Assembly: GCA_025455015.1 (NCBI GenBank)
Contig: JALONI010000002.1
Location: 21,809-85,808 of the forward strand
Direction: 5' to 3'
DNA: 64,000 nucleotides
Source of the DNA: Cyclobacteriaceae bacterium
GTDB taxonomy: Bacteria; Bacteroidota; Bacteroidia; Cytophagales; Cyclobacteriaceae
This document shows, in pieces, positions 5,054 through 31,303 of this stretch. The translations under genes and the position numbers were made by a program. The notes below the pieces were generated by a model. That model had not been told where the DNA came from. It was given only the letters and a program-made list of their open reading frames with translations, and did no database searches. Position 1 is the first letter of the stretch. Every line of letters begins with the position of its first letter.

Positions 5054-6945
5054 ACGTGGCCTCCACCGACTGGAATGCTTGGGTGCCGATTGCGTTGGCC
5101 CTGCCGCTCGTTTCGTTTGTCGTCAGTTTTTGGATGGGGCCGCGGTACGGCTGGCTGGTGCCACTGATGGCCACTGCGCTGTTGCTGGCAGGCTGGGTTT
5201 GCACCACCGTCATACTCGTTGACCATTCGGCAGGCACGAGCCATTTTGCCGTACCGTGGTTCTCCCTCGGCACGGACGTCATTCCCATCGGCTGGTGGCT
5301 GTCGCCACGGTCCGTGACCATGCTGTGGGTGGTGTACACCATTTCGCTGTTGGTACACGTGTATTCCATTGGCTACATGGCAGGCGAAGGGGGCATCGCC
5401 CGCTACTTCGCGTGGCTCGGCTTTTTTACGTTTGCCATGGGCGGGCTGGTGGTCAGTTCAAATTTACTGGTCACGTTTTGCTGCTGGGAGCTGGTCGGGT
5501 TGAGCTCCTATCGGTTGATTGGCCATTGGCACCAGCAGCCCGCGGCCGGTGCGGCTGCCACCAAGGCATTTTTAGTCAACCGCCTGGGCGACATCGGTTT
5601 GCTGGTGGCGCTCATGCTGCTGTGGTCACGCGCAGGCACGTTGGATATGCCCGCACTTACCGCCATGGCCCTGAGCGAAGAAACAAAAACGGCCGTGGGC
5701 CTCTGTGTGTTGTTGGCCCTGGCGGGAAAGTCGGCTCAGTTCCCATTGCTGCATTGGCTGCCCGATGCGATGGCGGGACCTACGCCCGTCTCTGCATTGA
5801 TTCATGCCGCCACCATGGTGGCCGCGGGCGTTTACTTGTTTGTGCAGTTGCATTTTTTGTTTTCGGCCGATGCCCTCGCGGTCGCGGCCGTGGTGGGCTT
5901 GCTCACGTTGTTTGTGGGCGGCTGGGGTGCCCTCACACAGTTTGACGTAAAAAAAATTCTGGCGTACTCCACCATTTCCCAATTGGGGTTGATGGTGGCA
6001 GGGGTGGCATTGGCCTCGCCCGAGGCGGGCTTTGCGCACTTGTTCACGCATGCGTTTTTCAAAGCCGGGTTGTTTCTGGGCGCTGGCGCCCTCATCCACG
6101 CAGTAAGCCGGCACGGGCACGCACCCCAACAAGACATTCGGCACATGGGCGGGCTATGGCAGTCGCACAGGCTGGTGCTCGTGTGCTTTGCGGTGTGTGC
6201 CGCCTCGCTGGCAGGCATGCCACTCACCAGCGGTTTCCTGTCCAAAGAAGGCCTGTTGCTACACGTGCGTCATCACAGCTTTTATTTTGGCGTGATGGCC
6301 ACGGCCTCGTTTGTCACCACGTTGTATAGTGCGCGCATGGTTTTCTATTTGCTGTCGCCCACACCCCAGGCAGCAGCCACCCACCCGGTGCCCGCCATCA
6401 TGCAACTGCCGCTCTTCGTTCTGTCTGTGGGCTCGCTTTTTATCGGCCTTTCGGCATCTCCGTTATCCATCCAATCGTGGTGGCCGGTGTTTGATGCGAT
6501 CGAAAGTGCCCCGTGGGTCATGGTGGTTTCGCTGGCCGTGTTGGTGGTGGGCGTAGGCGTAGCGTGGAGGTTGTATCGTCATCGTCCCACGGCAACGCTA
6601 CACGCACGGTGGGTACCACAAACCTGGTTGGATGCCGCGCAAAAACACATCGCGGTAACGCCTGCCTTGCAGGCGAGCCGCCTGACCCACCATGCCGACA
6701 GGCGCTGGCTCGATGGCGTCCTTCATGCAGCCTCGTATGGCTATGTCACGTGTTCGTTTGTGATCGGTTGGGTTGACCGCGTGTTGATTGACGGATGGGT
6801 GACGACCGTGACCCACGCGGCCAAAGGGGGAGGCAAGCTCTTTCGGTCATTGGTAAACGGAAAAATACAATCGTACCTGGCGTGGGGTATGCTGGCGTTG
6901 CTTAGTTTTATGGTTTGGATGTTGTACCAATTGGCTCACCGTTGA
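5050..6945 (+). CDS. nuoL: NADH-quinone oxidoreductase subunit L (GTG start)
   Basis: CCWELVGLSSYRLIGHW, LLHWLPDAMAGPTPVSALIHAATMV, HAFFKAGLFLGAGALIHA. Confidence 0.95.
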   Translation: MNVASTDWNAWVPIALALPLVSFVVSFWMGPRYGWLVPLMATALLLAGWVCTTVILVDHSAGTSHFAVPWFSLGTDVIPIGWWLSPRSVTMLWVVYTISLLVHVYSIGYMAGEGGIARYFAWLGFFTFAMGGLVVSSNLLVTFCCWELVGLSSYRLIGHWHQQPAAGAAATKAFLVNRLGDIGLLVALMLLWSRAGTLDMPALTAMALSEETKTAVGLCVLLALAGKSAQFPLLHWLPDAMAGPTPVSALIHAATMVAAGVYLFVQLHFLFSADALAVAAVVGLLTLFVGGWGALTQFDVKKILAYSTISQLGLMVAGVALASPEAGFAHLFTHAFFKAGLFLGAGALIHAVSRHGHAPQQDIRHMGGLWQSHRLVLVCFAVCAASLAGMPLTSGFLSKEGLLLHVRHHSFYFGVMATASFVTTLYSARMVFYLLSPTPQAAATHPVPAIMQLPLFVLSVGSLFIGLSASPLSIQSWWPVFDAIESAPWVMVVSLAVLVVGVGVAWRLYRHRPTATLHARWVPQTWLDAAQKHIAVTPALQASRLTHHADRRWLDGVLHAASYGYVTCSFVIGWVDRVLIDGWVTTVTHAAKGGGKLFRSLVNGKIQSYLAWGMLALLSFMVWMLYQLAHR

Positions 6946-15739: not shown

Positions 15740-17344
15740 TCAATCTACATTGTCATGCAAGAACTTATTGTTTCCCAGCAGGGTATTATCATCATTCAAG
15801 TTGTACCGCGAGATAAACGACTCGGACGAATGCGGCACCCCGTTATCCATCTTCACGCCCCTGCGCAGGTAAGCCGGCAGTGTCCATTTTTCGTTGAACT
15901 CATCCTTGGTCATTTCCGGCTTGGCCATTTTTGCCTTTAGCTTCTCGCGTCTTTCTTTAGCCTGCTGTTCTAACCGTTCTTTCGTCTTGCGGTACTCCAT
16001 CATGCCGTCTTCGTTGATGATCTGATCTGCGCTGACGCCCTTACCCACTGTAAACTCGTCATCCTCCTCTGCAAAGAGCCCTTCCTCGCCCTCGTCTTCG
16101 TGGGTTTCGGCTTTATGAAACAGTTCAAAGGTGTACGTGCGCTCCTCGGTTTTCTTTTCCTCCAGCGGCAGCTTTGTTTCGTCCGGTGGCAGCGAAAGAT
16201 CGGGTGTGTTGAGCACCGGTTTATCTTTATCCGACAACACGGGCGCCTTCAACTGGATTTCCTGCGTGCGTTGATTGACCGAGTTATCGATGGGGGCATC
16301 AAAAAGCGAGATTTGAGTTTTGTCCAGTTCGTGTACTTTTTTGTCCTCGGTTTTCTTCGCGGTGCGCGCCTCGGTTTGGAAACCCGTGGCGATAACGGTT
16401 ACGCGAATGCAGTCGCCCAGGTTGGTATCCACGCCATGGCCAAAAATCACTTCCGCCTCTTCCCCAGCCTGCTGTTGAATGTACTCAGTAATGGTGCTCA
16501 GCTCATCCATCTGCAATTCGGCTTCTTCGCCCGAGATGATCGACAAGAGGATTTTCTTGGCGCCCATGATGTCGTGGTTGTCGAGCAGCGGAGAGGCCAA
16601 GGCATTTTGCGCGGCCAGCAACGCGCGGTTTTCGCCCCGGGTCTCGGCCGAGCCCATAACGGCTGCGCCCGCATTCAGCATCACCGTGCGCACGTCCTGG
16701 AAGTCAACATTTACATAGCCGGCCTGGGTGATGATCTCTGCAATCCCTTTGGCCGCGGTGGTCAACACATTGTCGGCCTCGGCCCACGCTTGCCCTACCC
16801 CCAGGTTTCCGTAAATCTCGCGAAGTTTGTCGTTTAAGATGACCAGCACCGTATCGCACGAAGCGCGCATGGCTTCGATACCCACCTGCGCTTGAGCTGT
16901 TTTCTTCTTTCCCTCAAACGCAAACGGAACGGTTACGATACCCACGGTGAGGATGTCCATATCTTTGGCGATCTTCGCAATGACGGGTGCGGCCCCCGTG
17001 CCCGTGCCTCCGCCCATCCCGGCCGTGACAAACACCATCTTGGTGCCCATCAGCATTTCGCGTACTTGCTCCTTACTTTCAATGGCGGCTGCGCGCCCCA
17101 CTTCGGGGTTTGCTCCGCAGCCCAATCCTTCGGTGAGGTTAACGCCCAGTTGAAGTTTGTTGGGCACCGGGCTGCTGTTGAGCGCCTGTAAGTCCGTGTT
17201 GGCCACCACAAACTCGACATCCTTGATGCCTTGCTTGTACATGTGGTTCACCGCATTGCTTCCTCCGCCCCCCACACCGATCACTTTAATGATCGACTTG
17301 TGGTGCTTGGGAAGCTCAAATTTGTATGATCCTGTTTCAAACAT
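15740..17344 (-). CDS. ftsZ: Cell division protein FtsZ
   Basis: GVGGGGSNAVNHM, GMGGGTGTGAAPVIA tubulin signature. Confidence 0.98.
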   Translation of the reverse strand: MFETGSYKFELPKHHKSIIKVIGVGGGGSNAVNHMYKQGIKDVEFVVANTDLQALNSSPVPNKLQLGVNLTEGLGCGANPEVGRAAAIESKEQVREMLMGTKMVFVTAGMGGGTGTGAAPVIAKIAKDMDILTVGIVTVPFAFEGKKKTAQAQVGIEAMRASCDTVLVILNDKLREIYGNLGVGQAWAEADNVLTTAAKGIAEIITQAGYVNVDFQDVRTVMLNAGAAVMGSAETRGENRALLAAQNALASPLLDNHDIMGAKKILLSIISGEEAELQMDELSTITEYIQQQAGEEAEVIFGHGVDTNLGDCIRVTVIATGFQTEARTAKKTEDKKVHELDKTQISLFDAPIDNSVNQRTQEIQLKAPVLSDKDKPVLNTPDLSLPPDETKLPLEEKKTEERTYTFELFHKAETHEDEGEEGLFAEEDDEFTVGKGVSADQIINEDGMMEYRKTKERLEQQAKERREKLKAKMAKPEMTKDEFNEKWTLPAYLRRGVKMDNGVPHSSESFISRYNLNDDNTLLGNNKFLHDNVD

Positions 17345-17383
17345 GACGATTGTGTTTTAGTGGTTGTATTCGTTCAATGTTTT

Positions 17384-18691
17384 TTAGTATTCGTTTTTGC
17401 CATCCAAGTCGTCAATCAACAGTCCTTTGGTCTTGTTCAGGATGTTGGTGAAGAAGTCGCTGGTGAGCGCGGCCTTTTTGGTTTTCACGGGTGGCTTCAC
17501 CACGGTTTTGGCTTCGCGGTACCGTTCCTCGCGTTCGTCCAGCGAGCGGAAACCCGCCAGCACCAATCCCACGGCAGTGGCATACATGGGGCTTTTCACC
17601 GCCTCGAGTTTGCTCTTGCCCAGGTGCTCGTTAGGATACCCTATGCGCGTGTCCATGCCGGTCATGTACTCGACCAACTGTTTTAAGTTGGCGAGTTGCG
17701 AACCGCCACCCGTGATCACGATGCCGCCCGCCAATCGATTTTCAAACCCCGAGCTGATGATTTCGGTGTGCGCCATTTCAATGATCTCCTCCATGCGTGC
17801 CTGGATGATGTTCGCCAGGTTTTTCACGGAGATTTCCTTAGCTGTGCGGTTGCGGATGCCCGGTATGGACACCACTTCGTTGGGGCTCGCCTCTTCGGAT
17901 ATGGCCTTGCCAAACCGCGTCTTCAACTGCTCGGCCTGCTTGCCCATTACTTGCAATCCGTTTTGAATGTCTTTTGTCAGGATTTCGCCACCAAACGGAA
18001 TGACGGCTGTGTGGCGGATGATGTTATCATAAAAAATGGCGATGTCAGTCGTGCCGCCACCAATGTCGATCAGACAAACACCTGCTTCTTTTTCTTCTTC
18101 GCTCAGCACGGCCAGGCTGGAGGCCAGCGGCTCTAAAATCAAATCGTCAATCTCGATGCTGCTTCTGCGAACACATTTGTTGATGTTGTTGATGGCGCTG
18201 GTTTGCGCAGTAATCACATGGAAATCGGCTTCGAGTTTCACCCCGCTCATCCCAACCGGATCTTTGATGCCTTCCTCATAATCTACTGTGTAGTCCTGCG
18301 GCATCACGTGGATGATCTCACTGCCCGAAGGCACTACCATCCGGTACATGTCATCGGTGAGGCGGCTCACGTCTTCGATCGTGATTTCCCCTTCTTTGGA
18401 ATCGCGCAACATGCTGTTGTGGTGGATGGAGCTGCGGATATGCTGGCCGGCAATACCCACGTTTACCACACCAATGTCAATGCCCGACATATCGCTGGCT
18501 TCTTTGATGGCTTTTTCAATGGCCAGCACGGTTTTGTCGATGTTAACAACAATCCCTTTGATGACTCCTTCGGACTCGGCCTTGCCCATGCCAAGCACTT
18601 CCAGTTTGCCGAATTCGTTTTTGCGGCCCACAATGGCGCATATTTTCGTAGTGCCAATGTCCAGTCCGACTACTATTTTCTCGTTCTCCAT
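17384..18691 (-). CDS. ftsA: Cell division protein FtsA
   Basis: VGLDIGTTKICAIVG, CLIDIGGGTTDIAIF, GGIVITGGGSQL. Confidence 0.97.
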   Translation of the reverse strand: MENEKIVVGLDIGTTKICAIVGRKNEFGKLEVLGMGKAESEGVIKGIVVNIDKTVLAIEKAIKEASDMSGIDIGVVNVGIAGQHIRSSIHHNSMLRDSKEGEITIEDVSRLTDDMYRMVVPSGSEIIHVMPQDYTVDYEEGIKDPVGMSGVKLEADFHVITAQTSAINNINKCVRRSSIEIDDLILEPLASSLAVLSEEEKEAGVCLIDIGGGTTDIAIFYDNIIRHTAVIPFGGEILTKDIQNGLQVMGKQAEQLKTRFGKAISEEASPNEVVSIPGIRNRTAKEISVKNLANIIQARMEEIIEMAHTEIISSGFENRLAGGIVITGGGSQLANLKQLVEYMTGMDTRIGYPNEHLGKSKLEAVKSPMYATAVGLVLAGFRSLDEREERYREAKTVVKPPVKTKKAALTSDFFTNILNKTKGLLIDDLDGKNEY

Positions 18692-18722
18692 GACTCGTAT
18701 GTGTTTAGTGGTTGTTTCTCTT

Positions 18723-19487
18723 TCATTCTGCGATTACTTGTCCTTCGTACTCCAGGTTCACCCGGTCGTAGCGCGTCCAGCCACGCTGCGGCAATATTTC
18801 TTTGTAAAAGACGCGGAGCTTATCAAATTTTTCCTCCATGTTGTCGGGCGTACCAAACTCCACCTTCTGCCCGGTCACTTGAGGATAGAGCGTCACCCGG
18901 CCTTTCGCGTCAATGTCCAGTTGGGCTATCTGCGCCTTCCAAAACCGATCTTCGTTGATGTAGCGAATCATCGCTAACAGTTGTTGCCCCTCATCCAGTC
19001 GGGTCAGGTCTTCTGCCTGCAACAAGCGCTTGACAAACGGCCCGCTCACCAACACCACCCGCGAAGTGTATTTCTCCGACACGCCCATCACCGTGCCATC
19101 TTCTGCGATGTAGGCATCCGGGGCATCTTCTTGAATGATTCTTGCCATGGGCCTTCGCAGCTCTACCTGAACGACCAGGTTGCCCTTTAAATCGCCATAG
19201 AGCTCTGCGTCCAAAATATGTTTGTCGTACATGATCTTGGCCTCCAGTGCTTTCAGGTCAATGCGGTGAAGACCCACGCCTTTGATCGCCTGTCCGCTGC
19301 GCTCAATCAGCCGAAGGATGTCCGCCTCGTCTAAAAAGTGGTTTTCGTGTACGTTGTCCAATTCGACCAACACGTCTTGACACACCGTGCCACCCTGCTT
19401 GCGTTCGCTAAAGGCAATGAGTAGCGACAACGCCAGCAATGCGCTTACCACTTTCACTTCCTTGCGTATGGTTAGCTTCCACTTCAT
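18723..19487 (-). CDS. ftsQ: Cell division protein FtsQ/DivIB-like
   Basis: N-terminal TM, POTRA-like region, position between murC and ftsA. Confidence 0.85.
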   Translation of the reverse strand: MKWKLTIRKEVKVVSALLALSLLIAFSERKQGGTVCQDVLVELDNVHENHFLDEADILRLIERSGQAIKGVGLHRIDLKALEAKIMYDKHILDAELYGDLKGNLVVQVELRRPMARIIQEDAPDAYIAEDGTVMGVSEKYTSRVVLVSGPFVKRLLQAEDLTRLDEGQQLLAMIRYINEDRFWKAQIAQLDIDAKGRVTLYPQVTGQKVEFGTPDNMEEKFDKLRVFYKEILPQRGWTRYDRVNLEYEGQVIAE

Positions 19488-20866
19488 ACGTATCGCTTAA
19501 TGACCATTTCTTTGATGGGGTTGACGAACGTGTCAATATCCCCCGCGCCCACCGTGGCCACAACCTCCAACTCTAAATCTTCCAGGCGGTGGAGTACGTC
19601 TTTCTTTCCGCAGCGAATCTTGACCGGGCTGGTGATGGCGGGGAAGAGCATATCCGATGTTACCCCCGGTATCGGCTCCTCGCGCGCAGGATAGATGTCC
19701 ATGAGCAATACTTGGTCCGCCAGGCTCAGGCTTTTCGAAAAGCCGTCTGCAAAATCGCGGGTGCGCGTAAAGAGGTGCGGCTGAAAGACCACCGTAATTT
19801 TACGCCCGGCATACATAGACCTCAGCGATTTCAAAAACGCTTCGATCTCGGCCGGATGGTGGGCGTAGTCGTCAATGTAGGTAACGCGTGGCGACTTCAC
19901 GACAAATTCAAACCTGCGCTTCACCCCGCGAAACGAATGCAATGCCTGCTTGATCGTCTCGTCTGCAATACCGAGGTGCTTGGCCACCAGAGCGGCCGCC
20001 ATGGCGTTTTCCATATTGTGAAAACCGGGGACACCGAGCTGAATTTTCTCAATCGTCCAGGCGGGGCCTGTCAAATCGAATTCAAAAAATCCGCCCTTCG
20101 CGGTAATATTGCTGGCAAAAAATTGCCCCCGGTCTTTACCATACGTTTCCTGCGCCACTGCGCTGCCGCTGCCCAAAGCCGCCACCGACTCGTGTATAAT
20201 CAATTTGCCCTGCGTTTGTATCTGCCCGACAAAGTCCTTGAAAGAGGTAATCATGGCTGCGTGATCGCCATAGATGTCCAAGTGATCCGCATCGGCTGAG
20301 GTAATCACGGCCACCTCCGGAAACAACCGCAAAAAAGAGCGGTCAAACTCATCGGCTTCCGCCACTACCCACGTGTGGGCCGTTACCTCGCCATGCATGA
20401 CCAAGTTGCTCTCGTAGTTGGTGGTGATGCCGCCCAGAAACGCCACCATGCTGGTGCCGGCCTCCTTCAACACGTGTGCAATCAATGACGAAGTAGTGGT
20501 TTTGCCGTGCGTGCCCGCGACCGCAATGGTGCGGTAGTTTTGGGTGAGTATCCCCAACACTTCGGAGCGCTTCACGATGGTGAATCCGTTGGCTTTCAGG
20601 TAGGCATGCTCTGCGTGATCTTTGGGAATGGCAGGGGTATAGACTACCAACGTTTTTTCGCTTGATACATAACCCGGGATGAGCGCCACGCGATCGTCAA
20701 AGTGAATTTCCATTCCCTCTTCGATGAGTTCATGCGTGAGCGGGGTAGCCGTGCGGTCATAGCCCGCCACGCGCCAGCCTTTATGCTTAAACCAACGCGC
20801 CAGCGCACTCATGCCAATGCCGCCAATGCCCAAAAAATAGATGCTATCGTATTGCTTCAAGTTCAC
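19484..20866 (-). CDS. murC: UDP-N-acetylmuramate--L-alanine ligase
   Basis: YFLGIGGIGMSALARWF, GTHGKTTTSSLIAHVL, YIDDYAHHPAEI. Confidence 0.97.
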   Translation of the reverse strand: MNLKQYDSIYFLGIGGIGMSALARWFKHKGWRVAGYDRTATPLTHELIEEGMEIHFDDRVALIPGYVSSEKTLVVYTPAIPKDHAEHAYLKANGFTIVKRSEVLGILTQNYRTIAVAGTHGKTTTSSLIAHVLKEAGTSMVAFLGGITTNYESNLVMHGEVTAHTWVVAEADEFDRSFLRLFPEVAVITSADADHLDIYGDHAAMITSFKDFVGQIQTQGKLIIHESVAALGSGSAVAQETYGKDRGQFFASNITAKGGFFEFDLTGPAWTIEKIQLGVPGFHNMENAMAAALVAKHLGIADETIKQALHSFRGVKRRFEFVVKSPRVTYIDDYAHHPAEIEAFLKSLRSMYAGRKITVVFQPHLFTRTRDFADGFSKSLSLADQVLLMDIYPAREEPIPGVTSDMLFPAITSPVKIRCGKKDVLHRLEDLELEVVATVGAGDIDTFVNPIKEMVIKRYV

Positions 20867-20868
20867 GT

Positions 20869-21984
20869 TTACCGGATGCGTATCAGTGTTTCAATTTCGT
20901 CTACAATGGCTTGGGTGGCCTGCGGCTTTCCCAGCTTGCCGATGTTCTCGCCCAGGTGCTGGCACGCCACCCGATCGTACAACAGCGTGAGGGCTTCGTG
21001 TACCAACCGGCCACGGGCCTCCGCATCGGGCACCACGCGGGCAGCGTTCTCGTGGGCCAAGGCCATCGCGTTTTTGGTTTGATGATCTTCCGCCACGTTG
21101 GGCGAAGGCACCAGAATGGCGGGCTTGGCCGCCACGCATAACTCAGAAATAGACAAGGCTCCCGCACGCGATATCACCACATCGGCTGCGGCATACGCCA
21201 AATCCATCTGCTTCAAAAAATCATGGATCCGCACCTGCCGTAAGTCTTTGTCTTTCACCTGCGCCTTCACGCTCTCAAAATACGTTTTACCGGTTTGCCA
21301 GATGACCTGAACGTTGGCATCGATGAGTTTGTCGAGGCCTTGCGCCAGACTTTCATTGATGGTGCGCGCGCCCAAACTGCCACCCAATACCAGCAGCGTA
21401 TGTTTCCCTTCCGAAAATCCAAATTGCCCGAGTGCTTTGCCGCGCTTCTCAGCCAAGTGGTCAATGTCTTTTCGCACGGGGTTGCCGGTAACCACGATTT
21501 TGTCTTTTGGGAAATACTTTTCCATCCCCTGATACGCCACGCAAATGCGCGAAGCCTTCGCGGCCACTCGCTTGTTGGTAAGGCCGGCATACGAGTTTTG
21601 CTCCTGTATCAGGGTGGCGATTCCTGCGGCATTGGCCGCCAACATCATCGGCCCGCTGGCATAGCCGCCCGTACCGATGACGACATGGGGTTTGAACTGA
21701 CGTACAATTCTACGGGCCGCCAAATAACTGGACACTAACTTAACGGGAAACAGGAGATTTGACCACGTGAGCTTTCGCTGAAGGCCACTGATCCAAAGAC
21801 CAATAATACGATAGCCTGCTTCCGGCACGCGTGTCATTTCCATGCGGCCCTGGGCTCCTACAAACAGAATCTCTGACTGTGGGTGACGCTCTTTGAACGC
21901 ATTGGCGATAGCCACGGCAGGAAAAATATGCCCGCCCGTGCCGCCACCGCTGATGATCAAACGATATGATTGAGGCGCGGTCAC
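20869..21984 (-). CDS. murG: UDP-GlcNAc:undecaprenyl-PP-MurNAc-pentapeptide GlcNAc transferase
   Basis: IISGGGTGGHIFPAVAIA, VIGTGGYASGP, EQNSYAGLTNK, LGGSLGARTIN. Confidence 0.97.
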   Translation of the reverse strand: MTAPQSYRLIISGGGTGGHIFPAVAIANAFKERHPQSEILFVGAQGRMEMTRVPEAGYRIIGLWISGLQRKLTWSNLLFPVKLVSSYLAARRIVRQFKPHVVIGTGGYASGPMMLAANAAGIATLIQEQNSYAGLTNKRVAAKASRICVAYQGMEKYFPKDKIVVTGNPVRKDIDHLAEKRGKALGQFGFSEGKHTLLVLGGSLGARTINESLAQGLDKLIDANVQVIWQTGKTYFESVKAQVKDKDLRQVRIHDFLKQMDLAYAAADVVISRAGALSISELCVAAKPAILVPSPNVAEDHQTKNAMALAHENAARVVPDAEARGRLVHEALTLLYDRVACQHLGENIGKLGKPQATQAIVDEIETLIRIR

Positions 21985-23153
21985 GCTGCTTTGGCCGTTA
22001 CGGTTTTTTGTTCTTTCAATTCGCTGGCTTGCTGATCCCAGGCCTGATCACGCTCTCCGCGACTGACGCTTAGGATGATCCCCACCGAGAGGCCGGTGAA
22101 TACCATAGCCGTACCCCCCATGCTGATCAGCGGCAATGGCTGCCCCGTGATGGGCCCCAGCCCTACTACCACCCCCATGTTTACCATGGCTTGGCAAACC
22201 AAATCAAAGCTAAGCCCGGCCGATAGCAATCCGCCAAAGGCACGCTCGCTGTTATAGGCCGCCTTCATTCCCCGATGCAACAGAATCAAATACAAGATCA
22301 ACACCACCACGCCTCCAATAAGGCCATATTCCTCGATGACGATGGCATAGATGAAATCGGAATAAGGATGGGGAAGGATGTTTCGCTGCTCACTGTTGCC
22401 CGGGCCCTTGCCCAATAAGCCTCCCGTGGAAACGGCAATCAGCCCATGCTGTGCCTGAAACGAATGCTTGCCGCTGACAAACGCTTCCCAGCGGCTCTTC
22501 ACGGTTTCCCAGCGATTGCCAAAGTGAACAGCCGCAGCACCGGCCAACGCTCCCACCAACACCAACATGGCCAAATACTTGAGCGGCACACGGCCGATAA
22601 ACATGATGAGCATGCAGGTGGCGAACAACAGGATGGCGGTGGATACGTTGGACAGGCCGATGAGGGCACAAATAACACCGCACCAGATGAGCATGGGTAT
22701 CAATGACTCTTTGATGTCATCAATGTTCTGTTGTTTCTTCGAAAGCATGCTGGCGAGGTTGATGATGAGCGCCAAGCTCGCGAAGTCAGAAGGTTGAAAG
22801 GAGGTGTTGATGAGGGGCAGTGTAATCCATCGGGAAGCATCGTTGATCGTGTCACCAAACTTGAAGGTGTAAAGCAACAGCGGCACGCTGACCCAAAGGG
22901 CAAGCCGCGACAGTTTGGAGTAGTAGCGATAGTCGATCTTATGGGCTACCCACATGGCGCCCAACCCCAACAGGATCATGCCCGTGTGTTTGAACAAATA
23001 CGACTCAGGGCTGGTTGTGCGTTTAAATGCCAACGTGCCAATGGAGCTGTACACGACCAGTATGCTCACCATAGAAAGGGCAAAGACAACGGCCCAAATG
23101 ACCGGGTCGCCCTGTAGATGCTTGTCAGCCCATGACTTGATTTTTGCGATCAT
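21981..23153 (-). CDS. ftsW: SEDS-family lipid II polymerase FtsW
   Basis: Multi-TM; FIYAIVIEEYGLIGG, GPITGQPLPLISMGGTAM. Confidence 0.93.
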   Translation of the reverse strand: MIAKIKSWADKHLQGDPVIWAVVFALSMVSILVVYSSIGTLAFKRTTSPESYLFKHTGMILLGLGAMWVAHKIDYRYYSKLSRLALWVSVPLLLYTFKFGDTINDASRWITLPLINTSFQPSDFASLALIINLASMLSKKQQNIDDIKESLIPMLIWCGVICALIGLSNVSTAILLFATCMLIMFIGRVPLKYLAMLVLVGALAGAAAVHFGNRWETVKSRWEAFVSGKHSFQAQHGLIAVSTGGLLGKGPGNSEQRNILPHPYSDFIYAIVIEEYGLIGGVVVLILYLILLHRGMKAAYNSERAFGGLLSAGLSFDLVCQAMVNMGVVVGLGPITGQPLPLISMGGTAMVFTGLSVGIILSVSRGERDQAWDQQASELKEQKTVTAKAA

Positions 23154-24511
23154 GCTGTGGTCTTTTCCGTTTCTTGTTTGAGTGCCTGCACGGCTTCGCG
23201 AAATTGCGTACCGCGGTCTTCGTAGTTTTTGAATAAGTCAAAACTGGCACACGCGGGTGACAGCAGGGCGACATCGCCCGCCCGTCCTTCGCGCAGCGCC
23301 AGCCACACCGCCTCTTTCACCGAGTGTGTCTCGTGCACCACCGGCACCAGGTCGAGGAAAAAATCGCGAAGCTTGGTATTATCCGCTCCCAAGCAGATCA
23401 GGGCCTTCACTTTCTTGCGTACTGCTTCCTGAAGCAACGAGTAATCATTGCCTTTGTCAATGCCACCGGCAATCCAAATCAACGGCTGCTCGTAACTGCC
23501 CAGCGCGTATACCACCGAGTCAACGTTGGTGGCCTTGCTGTCATTGACAAACTCCACACCTTTGACGGTGGCCACCGACTCGAGGCGGTGTGGGGCATTC
23601 TTAAATGTTTTCAAGGCCTGCCGGATGACCTTTTCGGACACGCCCGCGTGCAGTGCAGCCGAGACAGCCGACATCGTATTGATCAAATTATGCGGGCCCT
23701 TGAGTGTGGTTTCGCGCTGGTCAATTGAAAAAGGCTGGCTGCCGCTGCGAAAGAACATGGTGGTGCCGTGGGCATGGGCCGTTGCCTTCGAATCGATCAG
23801 CGATACCGTGGTTTTGCCAGCCGCAATGGATCGGGTTTTTACCTCGTGGGAGGTGATGGCGTCATCCTGGTAAAAAATGAAATGATCCGCGGGCGTCATG
23901 TTGCGCACCAATTGAAACTTGGAGGCCACGTAGTTCTCCATCCGGTACTCATAGCGATCCAGGTGATCGGGTGTGATGTTCAGCAGAATGCCGATGAAGG
24001 GATGAAATGCCTGGGTGCCATCCAACTGAAAACTGCTGATCTCCACCACGTACCAATCGTGTTTTTCGAAGGCCACTTTACGGGCCAGGCTCTCGCCTAC
24101 GTTGCCGGCCAACGCCACCCGGTAGCCGGCCGATTTCAGGAGGTGGTGCGTGAGCAATGTGGTAGTGGTTTTACCGTTGGTGCCGGTAATGGCGATCACG
24201 TTGCCCGTCAGATACCGAAAAGCAAACTCCAGTTCGTCAATCATTTCGATTCCCCTGGCTTTTGCCTTCTGGATAACCTCTGCCTTCCCGGGGATGCCGG
24301 GGCTTTTGATGATCAACTCGGACTGCAAAATACGATCCAGCGAATGCGCGCCTTCCTCAAAGGCAAGGGACTCGCGCACCAGCTCGGCTTTGTATTTTTC
24401 TTTGATCAGCCCTTGGTCCGACACAAACACATCCCAGCCATGGGCTTTCGCCAACAAGGCTGCGCCTGTTCCGCTCTCGCCTGCCCCCAATATGGTTATC
24501 GTCTTGCTCAT
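23150..24511 (-). CDS. murD: UDP-N-acetylmuramoyl-L-alanine--D-glutamate ligase
   Basis: [54 protein letters not shown] overlap with mraY. Confidence 0.96.
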
Positions 24512-25716
24512 CGCAGCTTCAGGGTAGCCAAACTTAAAATCGCCAAAAGAATCCCGACAATCCAAAACCGTGTCACGATCTTGGCTTCGTGAATGTTTTT
24601 CTTTTGATAGTGGTGATGCAAAGGCGACATCAAAAATATCCTGCGGCCCTCGCCATATTTTTTCTTGGTGTACTTGAAATACGATACTTGCACAATCACG
24701 GACAGGTTCTCGATGAGGAAAATGCCGCACAACAGCGGAATCATCAATTCCTTTCGGACTGCCAGGGCCAGTACTGCAATGATACCCCCCAAGGATAGCG
24801 AACCGGTATCGCCCATAAATACCTGTGCGGGGTAAGCATTGTACCACAAGAAGCCCAAACACGCCCCCACAAAGGCGGTGCAGAAGATCACCAACTCACT
24901 CAGGTTGGGTATGTACATGATATTGAGGTAATCGCTAAAGTCAACCCGGCCGGACAGGTAAGCAAAAATGGCCAACGTAAGGCCAATGATGGCCGATGTG
25001 CCCGCGGCCAGTCCATCGATTCCATCCGTAATATTGGCTCCGTTTGAAACAGCGGTGATGATTACAATCACAAAAAGCGTGTACACAATCCACGTGTAGT
25101 TGCGGTCTAAAAACGGCCATAAGGCACTGTAGTCAAACTCGTTATTTTTGAAAAAGGGCACCGTGGTTTTGGTGGAGTGAACATCCTCGTATTGGGCCAC
25201 GGCCACCGTGCCGTTATCCGTGGCAATGGCCTTGGGTTGACGCACGACCACATGGTCGTTAAACGACAGGGTCAGCCCCACGATCAGCCCGATGGTGACC
25301 TGCCCGATAATCTTGAATCGCCCGGCAAGGCCTTCTTTGTTTTTCCGAAACACTTTGATGTAGTCATCCAAGAAACCCACCAACCCCAGCCATAGCGTGG
25401 TGACCACCAGCAGCAGCACATAAACGTTGTCGACCCGTGCAAAAAGTAAGGTCGGAATTAAAATGGCTGCGATGATAATCAGGCCGCCCATGGTGGGTGT
25501 TCCTTTCTTTTGGATTTGCCCCTCCAGCCCCAAATCGCGGATGTCTTCGCCCACCTGCTTTTTGCGCAAAAAGTTGATCAGGTTTTTTCCGAACGTGATC
25601 GTGATAATGAGCGAAAACAGCGCGGCCATACCCGCCCGGAACGAGATGTATTGAAACAATCCGGCCCCGGGAAAGTCAAAGTTCTGTTCGATATAGTCGA
25701 ATAAATAGTACAGCAT
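24508..25716 (-). CDS. mraY: Phospho-N-acetylmuramoyl-pentapeptide-transferase
   Basis: [46 protein letters not shown]. Confidence 0.97.
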
Positions 25717-25723
25717 CAATCCA

Positions 25724-27190
25724 TCAGTTGGCAAACATTTTCATCATTCGCTCCAGCACTTCATGGTCATCAAAAGGGTGTTTCACGCCTTTTATTTCCT
25801 GATAGGTTTCATGTCCTTTGCCCGCCACCAAGATGATGTCTTTGTCTTTGGCCAACATGCACGCGGTTTTGATGGCCTCTTCGCGGTCTACCATCACTAA
25901 TGTTTTGCGGGCATCCGAAGGGCTCACCCCGGTTTGCATGTCTTTGATGATCTGTACCGGGTCTTCATCGCGCGGATTGTCCGAAGTGAAAATCACTTTA
26001 GTGGAGTACTTGCAGGCAATGGCAGCCATCAACGGGCGCTTGGTCTTGTCGCGATTGCCTCCGCAGCCAACCACCGAGATGACTTGCTCGCTTCCGGTGC
26101 GGAAGTGCTCGATTGTTTCCAGCACGTTCTTGAGTGCATCGGGCGTATGGGCATAGTCAACAATGGCGGTAAAACGCGAACCCGGCAAAACGAGCTCAAA
26201 CCTGCCAGACGCACCCGTGAGTGAAGATAATTTCAACAAGACTGTCTCGGGGTCTTCGCCCAACAAACAGGCAGCTCCGTATACCGCCAGCAAGTTGTAC
26301 GCATTGAAGTCACCGATCAATTTAAACCACACGGGCCGGTCGGCAATTTCCAGTTCCAATCCCTCAATGGAATTGGTGATGATTTTGCCTTTGAAGTCCG
26401 CCACCTTCTTCAATCCATAGGTCAGCTTTTGGGCTTTGGTGTTTTGAAGCATCACCATGCCGCGCTTGTCGTCCACATTTACCAGGGCAAACGCCTCGGG
26501 CGACAATCCGTCAAAAAATCCTTTCTTGGCCCGGATGTAGCTTTCAAACGTGCGGTGATAGTCCAGGTGATCGTGGGTGATGTTGGTAAACAAGGCACCC
26601 GCAAACTGCAGTCCTTCTATTCTGCCCTGGTCAACTGCATGTGAGCTTACTTCCATAAAGCAATGCGTGCATCCCGCCTTCACCATCTCAACCAGCAATT
26701 CGTTGATCCGAAGTGGATCAGGGGTGGTGTGCGTGGCCGCGATTTCCTTGTCCACAATTTTATTCACAACTGTGGATAACATGCCACAGGTGAAGCCCAT
26801 GGCGGTGTACAGCTTGAAGAGCAGTGTAGTCACGGTGGTTTTGCCGTTGGTGCCCGTGACCCCTACCAACTTCAGGCGTGCCGATGGATTACCATAAAAG
26901 TTACCGGCCATAACACCCAGCGCGTGGGCACTATTCTTCACCGTAACATAGGTGACCTTTTCGGTCAGCAGTTCGGGCATCTTCTCGCACACCACCACGG
27001 AGGCGCCTGACGACACCGCTTTGCCGATAAAGTCATGGCCGTCACTCTGTGTGCCTTTGATGGCTACAAACAACGCACCGGGTGTTACGTGGCGCGAGTC
27101 AAATTGAACGGAAGTGACTTCGCTGGCCATGTCGCCCGAGGTGGACGTGATGTGAACTCTATATAATATGTCGCGCAGCGTGGCCATCAA
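25724..27190 (-). CDS. murE: UDP-N-acetylmuramoyl-L-alanyl-D-glutamate--2,6-diaminopimelate ligase
   Basis: [41 protein letters not shown] (DNPR is the meso-DAP motif). Confidence 0.96.
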
Positions 27191-29277
27191 CTTAGTTTCA
27201 CGTAAATGGTACTTCCTTTTGAAAAACGGGTGCCGGGCGTCAGCGACTGCTCCGCCACCCGGCCCTTGCCTTGGTATACGACCCGCAAGCCGGCCTTCTC
27301 CAGCAAATACAGCGCATCGCGAAAGGTCATGCCGTTTACATCGGGCACCAGCCCGCGAATGATTTCATTCTTCTTCCATGTTACCGCATTGCCTGTTTTC
27401 ACCGCGCGCACCCACTCCTCCTCGGTAGTGGAATGCGTGGACACCCCCAACTCATTGGTGAGCAGGGTCAGTTCATCTTGCTTGCCTGCACGGATGGTCG
27501 GAAACACGCCAGACTCCAGCACCGTCTTCTTCTCCATGGCGGTGTGTAGTTGCAAGTCGCGCGCGTAAATGTTATCGGCAATTTCTTTGAATACCGGCCC
27601 GGCCACATTGTTGCCGTATTGCTGCCAACCTTTGGGATTTTTCACCACCACGATGGCACTGTACTTGGGCGCGTGTGCGGGAAAGTAGCCCACAAACGAA
27701 GTGATGTATTTCTTGGTGTAGCGCCCGTCTTCCAGTATTTGGGCCGTACCCGTTTTGCCGGCAATGCGGTAATGCGCATCCTTCAGGTTCTTGGCCGTCC
27801 CATGGTCAACCACCCCTTCCAACAGCAGGCGCAATTTGTTGAGTGTTTTGGTTGAGCAGATTCTGCCATTGATCGTCTCGGTCTCAAAAGTCTGCACCGG
27901 CTTGTCGGCCTTCATGATGGACGTGACAAAAATGGGCTTGATCATTTCACCTCCATTGGCCACCGCATTGTAGAGTGTAAGCGTGTGCAAGGGTGACATC
28001 TCCAGACCGTAGCCGTATGACATCCACGGAAGTGAAATACCACTCCAGGACTTCTCGCCCGGGCGGGGGATTTTGGGGAATACCTCGCCTGTGATTTGTA
28101 AACCCAGGGGCTTGGTCAGCTTTAACCGGTCCAGGTGGTTCATGAACTTGTCTGGTTTCAAGCCAAAGTGCTTATCCACCAACTTGGCCATGGCCACGTT
28201 GGAAGACAATTCAAATGACTGCTGGATGGTGACCGTACCAAAGCCGCCCTCGTGGTGATCTTTTACTTTGCGATTGTAGAAGGTGTACTCCCCGTTGCCG
28301 GTCTTAATGCTGTCGCCCAACTCAATATTCGTATCCTCTAAAAGCGCCATGAGGGTGACCAACTTGAGCGTGGAGCCGGGTTCCATGGAGCCGCCCACGG
28401 CATGGTTAAATTTTTCGCTGTAGTTGCCTTTGCCATCGCGCGTCAGGTTGGAGATGGCTTTAACATGCCCGGTTTTTACTTCCATCACCACCACGGTGCC
28501 CTCGTCTGCATCGTGCTGCTGCATGTGCCGATGAAGCGATGTCTCGGCCACGTCTTGCAGGTTAATGTCAATGGTGGTTTGAATGTCCATGCCGTTAACA
28601 GCCTTTATGCTGTTGGCATCGAAAACGGGTTTCCAGGTACCTCCGGCAATTTTTTGAAACAAGGCTTCTCCGTTCTGCCCACCCAGGGCCTCGTTAAAGC
28701 TGTACTCCAGCCCGGCTCCTTTTTCGTCTTCGTTGACAAAGCCTACCGTTCTGCGGCTCAGGTTTGAAAAGGGGCGGTAACGCACATCCATTTTTTCGAA
28801 GATGACACCTCCTTTGTAGCGGCCTTCGCGGAAGATAGGCCACGAAGACATCTCTTTTTTTGTTTGGTAGTTGATCTGTTTGCGGTTGATAATCAGATAC
28901 TGCTTGCCCGTGGCGCGGGCATCGATCAGCATTTCCTTATAGTCTTGCTTGGAGCGGTCTTGGTAATGGCGCGCGAGCATGAGCGCCAATGAATCCACGC
29001 CTTTGTCAAAAACTTCCTTTTTGGGTAAGGTAGGGTCCATGGCCACTTTGTAAAACGGCAGCGAAGTGGCGAGCAAACTGCCATTGTCTGAATAGATGTT
29101 GCCGCGGGTAGCCTTTACGGTCTTGAAATCAAACATGATTTCTTCGGCCATCTTTGCCCATTTGTCGCCCTCCACTACTTGCACATGCCCGATTTTGGCA
29201 GCCACACAAATAGCGAACAGCACCACGCCCAAAAACGCGATGCGTACCCGAATCAGTATGGATTTTTTGATGTTCAT
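27187..29277 (-). CDS. ftsI: Penicillin-binding protein 2/3 (FtsI-type transpeptidase) with C-terminal PASTA domain
   Basis: EPGSTLKL (SxxK), SSN, KTGT motifs; C-terminal PASTA-like VPDVNGMTFRDALYLLEKAGLRVVYQGKG. Confidence 0.94.
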   Translation of the reverse strand: MNIKKSILIRVRIAFLGVVLFAICVAAKIGHVQVVEGDKWAKMAEEIMFDFKTVKATRGNIYSDNGSLLATSLPFYKVAMDPTLPKKEVFDKGVDSLALMLARHYQDRSKQDYKEMLIDARATGKQYLIINRKQINYQTKKEMSSWPIFREGRYKGGVIFEKMDVRYRPFSNLSRRTVGFVNEDEKGAGLEYSFNEALGGQNGEALFQKIAGGTWKPVFDANSIKAVNGMDIQTTIDINLQDVAETSLHRHMQQHDADEGTVVVMEVKTGHVKAISNLTRDGKGNYSEKFNHAVGGSMEPGSTLKLVTLMALLEDTNIELGDSIKTGNGEYTFYNRKVKDHHEGGFGTVTIQQSFELSSNVAMAKLVDKHFGLKPDKFMNHLDRLKLTKPLGLQITGEVFPKIPRPGEKSWSGISLPWMSYGYGLEMSPLHTLTLYNAVANGGEMIKPIFVTSIMKADKPVQTFETETINGRICSTKTLNKLRLLLEGVVDHGTAKNLKDAHYRIAGKTGTAQILEDGRYTKKYITSFVGYFPAHAPKYSAIVVVKNPKGWQQYGNNVAGPVFKEIADNIYARDLQLHTAMEKKTVLESGVFPTIRAGKQDELTLLTNELGVSTHSTTEEEWVRAVKTGNAVTWKKNEIIRGLVPDVNGMTFRDALYLLEKAGLRVVYQGKGRVAEQSLTPGTRFSKGSTIYVKLS

Positions 29278-29305
29278 GGGGAAGGTATGCGGGGGTTGGG
29301 GGGGG

Positions 29306-29701
29306 TTAGTCTTCAACAACAATTTTATAGGGCGGCCGCAAACTTTCTTTGAGCCCCAATTCCTTTACGCGTCTGGCAACTTCACTTTGCTTGCTGGCAA
29401 ACATCACATCCGCCTTGAGCGTGGTATAATCGGCCCGCAGGTCTTCCACTTCGCTTTGCGCGCGGTTGATGGCGCGCGTGGTGCGTTCGGCATGGTGCGT
29501 GTTGCTGATGTACAGCAGACTCAGCACCAATACGAAAAGTATCTTGGGCAAGTACTGTACGGGAAATCCTTCCTCAAAATAGCTTTCCAGTTTCAGTCGT
29601 TTTTCCAACTGTGAGAACGCACTGGTGCCATTACCTTGCGTAGGCTTGATGCGCGCTTCGTTGCCGCGCTCGGGTTCAATTTTGAATTTATTGTCTGCCA
29701 T
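29306..29701 (-). CDS. ftsL: FtsL-like cell division protein
   Basis: Small protein with a single TM and coiled-coil between rsmH and ftsI. Confidence 0.75.
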   Translation of the reverse strand: MADNKFKIEPERGNEARIKPTQGNGTSAFSQLEKRLKLESYFEEGFPVQYLPKILFVLVLSLLYISNTHHAERTTRAINRAQSEVEDLRADYTTLKADVMFASKQSEVARRVKELGLKESLRPPYKIVVED

Positions 29702-30641
29702 GATCTCTGTCCTTTTCGCGGGGCACTGTTTCCCCTATTTTTTCCGCCACCCGCAACTTGGCGCTGCGCGCGCGGCTATTCTGTTCTATTTCTTCTGCCG
29801 AGGCCTCAATCGGTTTCCGGTTGACCGCTTGCAGGGGCCTGAGCGGGTTTCCGAAAAAATCCTTATCCACTTCGCCAAACACTTTCCCGGTGTTGATGTA
29901 GTTTTTCACCATTCGGTCTTCCAGCGAGTGGTAGCTCATCACCACCAGGCGCCCCCCCGGCCGCAGCACTTCGCCACATTGGTGCAAAAAATCTTCAAGT
30001 GCCTGCATCTCTTGGTTTACTTCGATGCGCAGCGCCTGAAACACCTGGGCGAAATATTTGTACTCCTTGCCACGAGGAGCTCTGGTCTGTAGCATGTCGA
30101 TCAATTCGCTGCTGCGCGCAAAGGGGCGCGTAGCCCGATGCTGCACCAGGGCTTGTGCCACCGTTTTGGCGTTTTTGATTTCGCCATACATGCCCAACAC
30201 CTTATGCAGTTCGCGTTCGTCATAGGTGTTGAGGATGTGCGCAGCCGTGATCGGGTTTTGCGCGCTCATGCGCATGTCTAACGGGCCGTCAAAGCGGGTG
30301 GAAAAACCGCGCGCGGGCGAATCGATCTGATGGGAGGAGATACCCAGGTCGGCCAGTATGCCGTGTACCTGTGTTACTCCGTTCAGCTTCAGGTATTTTT
30401 TCAAATACCGAAAGTTGGCCTGACAAAATGTAAAAGAACGACTCTGTATCAGTTCTGCCTGTTTCCGGGCGTCTTCATCCTGATCAAACGCGATCAGCCG
30501 TCCGCCCTTCAACGACTCCAGTATCCCCAAACTGTGGCCCCCACCGCCAAAGGTGGCGTCCACGTAAATTCCCTCCTCCTGCACGCGCAGCCCATCTACG
30601 CACTCGCGAAGCATAACCGGTTTGTGATAGGGTGTGCTCAT
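29688..30641 (-). CDS. rsmH: 16S rRNA m4C1402 methyltransferase
   Basis: HKPVMLRECVDGL, VDATFGGGGHS, GPLDMRMS, YHSLEDRMVKNY. Confidence 0.97.
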   Translation of the reverse strand: MSTPYHKPVMLRECVDGLRVQEEGIYVDATFGGGGHSLGILESLKGGRLIAFDQDEDARKQAELIQSRSFTFCQANFRYLKKYLKLNGVTQVHGILADLGISSHQIDSPARGFSTRFDGPLDMRMSAQNPITAAHILNTYDERELHKVLGMYGEIKNAKTVAQALVQHRATRPFARSSELIDMLQTRAPRGKEYKYFAQVFQALRIEVNQEMQALEDFLHQCGEVLRPGGRLVVMSYHSLEDRMVKNYINTGKVFGEVDKDFFGNPLRPLQAVNRKPIEASAEEIEQNSRARSAKLRVAEKIGETVPREKDRDHGRQ

Positions 30642-30744
30642 CGTTTGGTTTACGTACCGGCCGCGGCTTTGAAGCCGTTTGCCTTACCTACCGATGAAGC
30701 CGGATTTTCGCTCGCAAAAAAATCCCGCTCATCAACACCACCGG

Positions 30745-31188
30745 TCATTGCTCCAAATGCTTCTGCGCCAACTTTGACAACTCACTCGGGTCTTGGATCA
30801 GGTGCTTCTCGTAAGTGGTCGGGTTCCATATCTCCACTTTGTTGCCCATACCCACCAGCGTAGCGTCTTTGTCAATCTGCGCATACGTGAGCATGTTTTT
30901 GGGGATGAGGAACCGGCCGTTCGCATCCAACTCTACCGTGACCACGCCCGACAAAAAATTGCGCTGCAGCGTACGGTACTCTTCGTTGAACTCATTCAGC
31001 CCGGAAATTTTTGAGAAGACCTTTTTGAACTCCACCAGCGGGTACACGATCAGGCACGGCTCGAACCCCCTGCGGATGATCAGCTCCTGACCCTCCCCTT
31101 CGGGAAGCTGGGATTTGATCCGCGCAGGCAGCACCATCCGCCCCTTGGCATCGAGTTTACATTCGTATTGACTGGTGAAGAAAGTCAT
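30745..31188 (-). CDS. mraZ: Division/cell wall cluster transcriptional regulator MraZ
   Basis: YECKLDAKGRMVLPARIKSQL, VELDANGRFLIPKNML (two AbrB-like halves). Confidence 0.95.
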   Translation of the reverse strand: MTFFTSQYECKLDAKGRMVLPARIKSQLPEGEGQELIIRRGFEPCLIVYPLVEFKKVFSKISGLNEFNEEYRTLQRNFLSGVVTVELDANGRFLIPKNMLTYAQIDKDATLVGMGNKVEIWNPTTYEKHLIQDPSELSKLAQKHLEQ

Positions 31189-31206
31189 GACGTAGTGGTT
31201 GTCTTT

Positions 31207-31226
31207 CCTGCCTGCCGTCAGGCAGG
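31207..31226. repeat. Palindromic element CCTGCCTG-CCGT-CAGGCAGG in the mraZ 5' UTR
   Basis: Perfect 8-bp inverted repeat. Confidence 0.85.
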
Positions 31227-31236
31227 TTCTCCAAAA

Positions 31237-31266
31237 CAAACGTAGGGAAATTTATCCCACTTTCAA
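31237..31266 (-). promoter_or_regulatory. mraZ/dcw promoter: TTG-N19-TACGTTTG (minus strand)
   Basis: -7 TACGTTTG (31237-31244), -33 TTG (31264-31266), exactly 19-nt spacer. Confidence 0.8.
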
Positions 31267-31303
31267 CCACTTTATGCCACTTTTTTACATTTTATGCCAT
31301 TTT
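31257..31303 (-). promoter_or_regulatory. MraZ-box operator array
   Basis: Plus-strand CCACTTT at 31257, 31267 and 31277 plus degenerate ACATTTT (31287) and CCATTTT (31297), all in 10-bp phase; minus-strand AAAGTGG repeats. Confidence 0.8.

Follow-up and report, generated by a model that had tools for sequence, protein, structure and literature searches.

The mraZ promoter of a Cyclobacteriaceae division cluster carries a phased array of AAAGTGG boxes

The window analyzed here, a 64,000-nucleotide stretch of contig JALONI010000002.1 from a Cyclobacteriaceae bacterium, carries on its minus strand a division and cell wall (dcw) cluster of which mraZ is the first gene. The mraZ frame (30745–31188) encodes a 147-amino-acid protein that matches PF02381 in Pfam and resembles solved MraZ structures; it is followed by rsmH (mraW; 29688–30641; PF01795) and by a run of genes from ftsL to ftsZ, spanning 15740–29701 and all on the minus strand. 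As assigned from gene calls and Pfam, this run consists of ftsL (29306–29701), ftsI (27187–29322), murE (25724–27190), mraY (24508–25734), murD (within the ORF at 23150–24862), ftsW (21981–23153), murG (20869–21984), murC (19484–20866), an ORF without a Pfam match that sits at the position of ftsQ (18723–19487), ftsA (17384–18691) and ftsZ (15740–17344). The gap between mraZ and rsmH measures 103 nt (30642–30744) and could form hairpins (GGATTTT...AAAATCC and GGCTTCAAAGCC); its fold is no better than that of shuffled sequences (z −1.2). The cluster may be transcribed as a single long message from mraZ to ftsZ, although this gap, with its hairpins, counts against it.

Inspection of the mraZ promoter revealed an array of short direct repeats on the minus strand, which from 31303 to 31237 reads AAAATGGCAT AAAATGTAAA AAAGTGGCAT AAAGTGGTTG AAAGTGGGAT AAATTTCCC TACGTTTG. 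Between 31303 and 31251 lie three perfect AAAGTGG boxes with an exact 10-bp period (box 1, 31277–31283; box 2, 31267–31273; box 3, 31257–31263), accompanied by weaker copies in the same phase. The pattern AAAGTGGN3AAAGTGGN3AAAGTGG is matched exactly at 31257–31283, as a first-pass annotation of this DNA had also seen, and was absent from 100 dinucleotide shuffles of the window, even with three mismatches allowed. In the whole 3.4-Mb genome the array is the sole match to the looser AAANTGN4AAANTGN4AAANTG, the reversed control giving none. Taken from upstream to downstream, the successive registers match AAAGTGG at 6, 5, 7, 7 and 7 of 7 positions, against a background in which a random heptamer off the array reaches 5/7 at 1.4% of positions and 6/7 at 0.24%.

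The promoter itself is interleaved with these boxes. Bacteroidota sigma-A promoters have the consensus TTG (−33), about 19 nt, and TAnnTTTG (−7). The locus follows this pattern, with a −33 TTG (31266–31264) that makes up the 3-nt spacer separating box 2 from box 3, an N19 spacer, and TACGTTTG (31244–31237) as the −7 element, all on the minus strand; box 3 thus lies between the two elements. These coordinates agree with the promoter proposed in the first-pass annotation, in which the −33 TTG was likewise set between two boxes. Across the genus, all 33 members have TAnnTTTG in this register, and 26 of them have the full TTG-N19-TAnnTTTG. From the position of the promoter, transcription is presumed to start near 31232; the mraZ start lies 49 nt downstream of the promoter.

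Several features of the mraZ leader were recorded alongside the array. Immediately before the start codon, GACAACCACTA (31194–31201, minus strand) is kept in the genus and in a sister genus of the family. A perfect hairpin, CCTGCCTGACGGCAGGCAGG, occupies 31207–31226 (leader fold z −3.0); at the same point, a few relatives have other inserts or hairpins (L016, L029) and most have none, and a near-identical palindrome recurs elsewhere in the genome, once exactly and once with one mismatch. The leader element CAACCACT, the reverse complement of AGTGGTTG in box 2, was considered as an inverted box and dropped from the array, because it keeps near the start codon, whereas its distance to the array ranges from 64 to 109 nt.

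The array is conserved in the genus and accompanies mraZ in about ten phyla

Comparison of the 33 genus members shows that all of them have three boxes in the same register, each matching at 6/7 or better, and that the boxes are invariant while the spacers between them vary. A three-box score of at least 16/18 is reached upstream of mraZ in all 32 relatives in the genus and in none of the shuffles. The outer registers behave differently from the central three. The next register upstream of the strong boxes (AAAATGT, 5/7; 31287–31293, minus strand) reaches at least 5/7 in 52% of the genus, and the outermost (AAAATGG, 6/7; 31297–31303, minus strand) does so in 3%, that is, in this genome only, which makes its function doubtful. 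Thus, of the five copies counted in the first-pass annotation, the three perfect ones hold throughout the genus, the fourth is kept in about half of it, and the fifth is private to this genome. Downstream of box 3, a weak register (AAATTTC; 31247–31253, minus strand) scores 4/7 at this locus and at least 5/7 in 55% of the genus, many relatives having AAAGTT- or AAAATT-type sequences there.

Beyond the genus, the comparison took in 117 other Bacteroidota, and in 92 of them the mraZ upstream region contains GTGG pairs at a 10-bp step; the other periods between 6 and 16 gave 0–7 each, and shuffles 0.3. AAAGTGT-type boxes, as known from Mollicutes, occur in several of the 25 that lack such pairs.

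We then scanned one genome per species from 84,980 prokaryotic species for the exact three-box array. The scan gave at least 116 stretches, which are a sample and not a total; among the 116 matches listed, 108 are followed directly by an MraZ ORF in the same orientation or touch the start of one. Judged by the record titles of named organisms, these listed matches come from about ten phyla, among them Bacteroidota, Bacillota, Pseudomonadota, Actinomycetota, Spirochaetota, Fusobacteriota, Cloacimonadota, Omnitrophota, Rokuibacteriota and Levybacteria (Patescibacteria). Five listed matches were left out of the mraZ test since their stretches end too near the match (L054, L065, L087, L111, L115), and three are exceptions, namely L036 and L103, plain tandem repeats in which the motif occurs, and L145, from a Bacteroidales MAG. 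In L145 the three-box array at 5657–5683 (minus strand) is perfect and is preceded by more GTGGGGATAA/ATGGGGATAA copies; the search of its 8-kb stretch found no MraZ ORF.

The converse comparison used 12 MraZ-negative Bacteroidota genomes, in none of which the two-box pattern was found; because most of them belong to one family, they amount to fewer than twelve independent losses. Phased GTGG pairs were likewise absent from all ten rsmH upstream regions taken from MraZ-negative genomes, and in two near-complete Bacteroidota genomes (G156, G135) there was no match to MraZ or to RsmH. The array therefore co-occurs with mraZ and is missing where mraZ is missing, the Bacteroidota controls being mostly of one family.

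Candidate targets away from mraZ were also collected. With one mismatch allowed, AAAGTGGN3AAAGTGG matches a single other place in this genome (L033, CAAGTGGCAAAAAGTGG), which lies within a coding frame and was rejected. Stray two-box matches away from mraZ in three other genomes (G217, G221, G074) lie within coding frames or at their ends and were rejected too, and an extra match in another (G176) proved to be that genome's own mraZ promoter (L294). No conserved second MraZ target was found among the near-matches in this genome and the others.

Correspondence with known MraZ sites

The array was compared with MraZ sites described in other bacteria. In Mollicutes, according to PMC8475190, MraZ recognizes AAAGTG[T/G] direct repeats in the mraZ promoter (Fisunov et al., 2016), and the M. 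genitalium chromosome has a single copy of the motif; as far as that description goes, the window array resembles this site in having direct AAAGTG[T/G] repeats at the mraZ promoter, in a different phylum. In Burkholderia cenocepacia, the PmraBc promoter has four 7-nt repeats with 3-nt spacers that are bound by MraZ and lie downstream of the −10 element, across the start site (PMC7761207). The 10-bp period is the same as in the window; the Burkholderia repeats, however, lie past the −10 element, whereas the window array runs across the −33 element. The E. coli MG1655 mraZ promoter, like that of the window, has three boxes at 10-bp steps upstream of mraZ, with GTGG cores (CAGTGGG, TTGTGGG, AAAGTGG), but they follow the −10 element, 44–24 nt before mraZ, and have less A-rich flanks.

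The window array thus shares with known operators the AAAGTG[T/G] or GTGG-core direct repeats and the 7-nt box with a 3-nt spacer, and does not share the position downstream of −10 seen in E. coli and Burkholderia, a feature that varies among MraZ sites and does not define them. Judged from these comparisons, 10-bp phasing is a general property of MraZ sites. The first-pass annotation had recognized MraZ boxes at the dcw promoter, an assignment borne out by the linkage to mraZ among the listed matches and by the published motif, and had read them as a clear Bacteroidota version in which the helical phasing is extended. A form peculiar to Bacteroidota is not supported by the comparison, as the same AAAGTGG-N3 array occurs in about ten phyla among the matches listed, and both E. 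coli and Burkholderia (PMC7761207) show the same spacing. In the literature searched, whose coverage was incomplete, we found no published description of an MraZ site for Bacteroidota.

The array keeps a fixed register with the promoter and lies over the −33 region

The array spans about −61 to −25 in members of this order and class, and its helical register relative to the promoter is fixed. In 55 of the 56 genus, family, order and class arrays that have a TAnnTTTG, this element begins 38–39 or 49 nt downstream of the first box of the best three, and in the remaining one it does so at 50 nt. Taking TA as −12, the boxes fall at −61, −51, −41 and −31; given these 10-bp steps, an array that begins one box further upstream is shifted by a whole turn. 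Common descent may account for part of this lock, so that it does not amount to statistical proof of a helical constraint.

Placement within this frame differs between lineages. In most of the genus, the window included, box 3 falls between −33 and −7, while order members have strong boxes that begin at −61, −51 and −41 and end just before −33. In other class members with a recognizable −7 element (n = 10), a TTG at 18–19 nt spacing is absent. Among the class arrays L224–L235, nine of the ten with a recognizable TAnnTTTG have no TTG 15–25 nt upstream, the −33 position being held by the box spacers TAA or GTA. Outside the class, TTGAC is found upstream in 43 of 52 Bacteroidota arrays, most commonly 30 nt before the first GTGG (23/43), indicating that the array begins at the −10 element there. 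The first-pass annotation had remarked on position relative to the promoter for this locus alone; the class-wide difference comes from the present comparison.

Predicted function of the array

From its sequence, the array is almost certainly an MraZ operator. Building on the computed array, its uniqueness, conservation, link to mraZ and register with the promoter, we infer that this particular MraZ would bind as a ring whose adjacent subunits each read one AAAGTGG box on the same helix face, one per 10 bp. Since the boxes extend over the −33 element and the −33/−7 spacer, MraZ bound there would be expected to exclude RNA polymerase, and this exclusion would repress both mraZ and the rsmH-to-ftsZ cluster that follows it, forming a negative feedback. 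Autorepression is the likeliest outcome because the array covers the −33 element and spacer, in agreement with E. coli and M. genitalium, for which genetic evidence points to repression by MraZ (PMC8475190). We accordingly rate repression as probable, at a position where activation may also occur. The autorepression predicted in the first-pass annotation keeps its place as the leading expectation.

The same operator could have the opposite sign, with MraZ near or over −33 recruiting RNA polymerase and activating the cluster in Bacteroidia. We consider this unlikely, if worth keeping in view: the interval from about −61 to −25 is one that activators use too, the strong boxes of order members stop just short of −33, most other class members with a recognizable −7 element lack a −33 TTG, and PMC7761207 mentions a description of mycoplasma MraZ as an activator. 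At the window and in most of its genus, however, box 3 lies where a bound activator would normally obstruct, the window promoter has a good −33, and the E. coli and M. genitalium genetics favor repression (PMC8475190). That a regulator other than MraZ binds the array is very improbable. Although the identity of the operator is read from sequence here, the array tracks mraZ in about ten phyla among the matches listed, is missing from MraZ-negative genomes, and equals the MraZ site as given in PMC8475190 and PMC7761207. A functionless chance or low-complexity repeat, a reading that the two plain tandem repeats among the three exceptions would favor, has a negligible probability and is already refuted by conservation, the boxes being invariant amid variable spacers and the period exactly 10 across the phylum.

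The reading of the array as an MraZ operator, with repression the probable sign and activation the lesser possibility, is one that we hold with high confidence as a whole. More tentatively, and with the odds well against it, the array may have slid in class Bacteroidia, with register kept, to the −33 region from its place in other bacteria at the −10/start region, a shift of about four to five turns of the helix, such that MraZ may contact or compete with sigma region 4 and may be an activator in lineages without a −33 TTG. The repeat, its spacing, the gene and its autoregulation are already published in other bacteria; the class-wide shift to −33 is the part worth following up.

These results provide a clean MraZ operator for Cytophagales, as predicted from sequence, and show the AAAGTGG-N3 array to be a nearly universal address of the mraZ gene in bacteria. 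The placement question bears on the conflicting reports of MraZ as repressor and as activator, and the Bacteroidia arrangement makes testable the idea that one conserved regulator and its site may act as repressor or activator by position.
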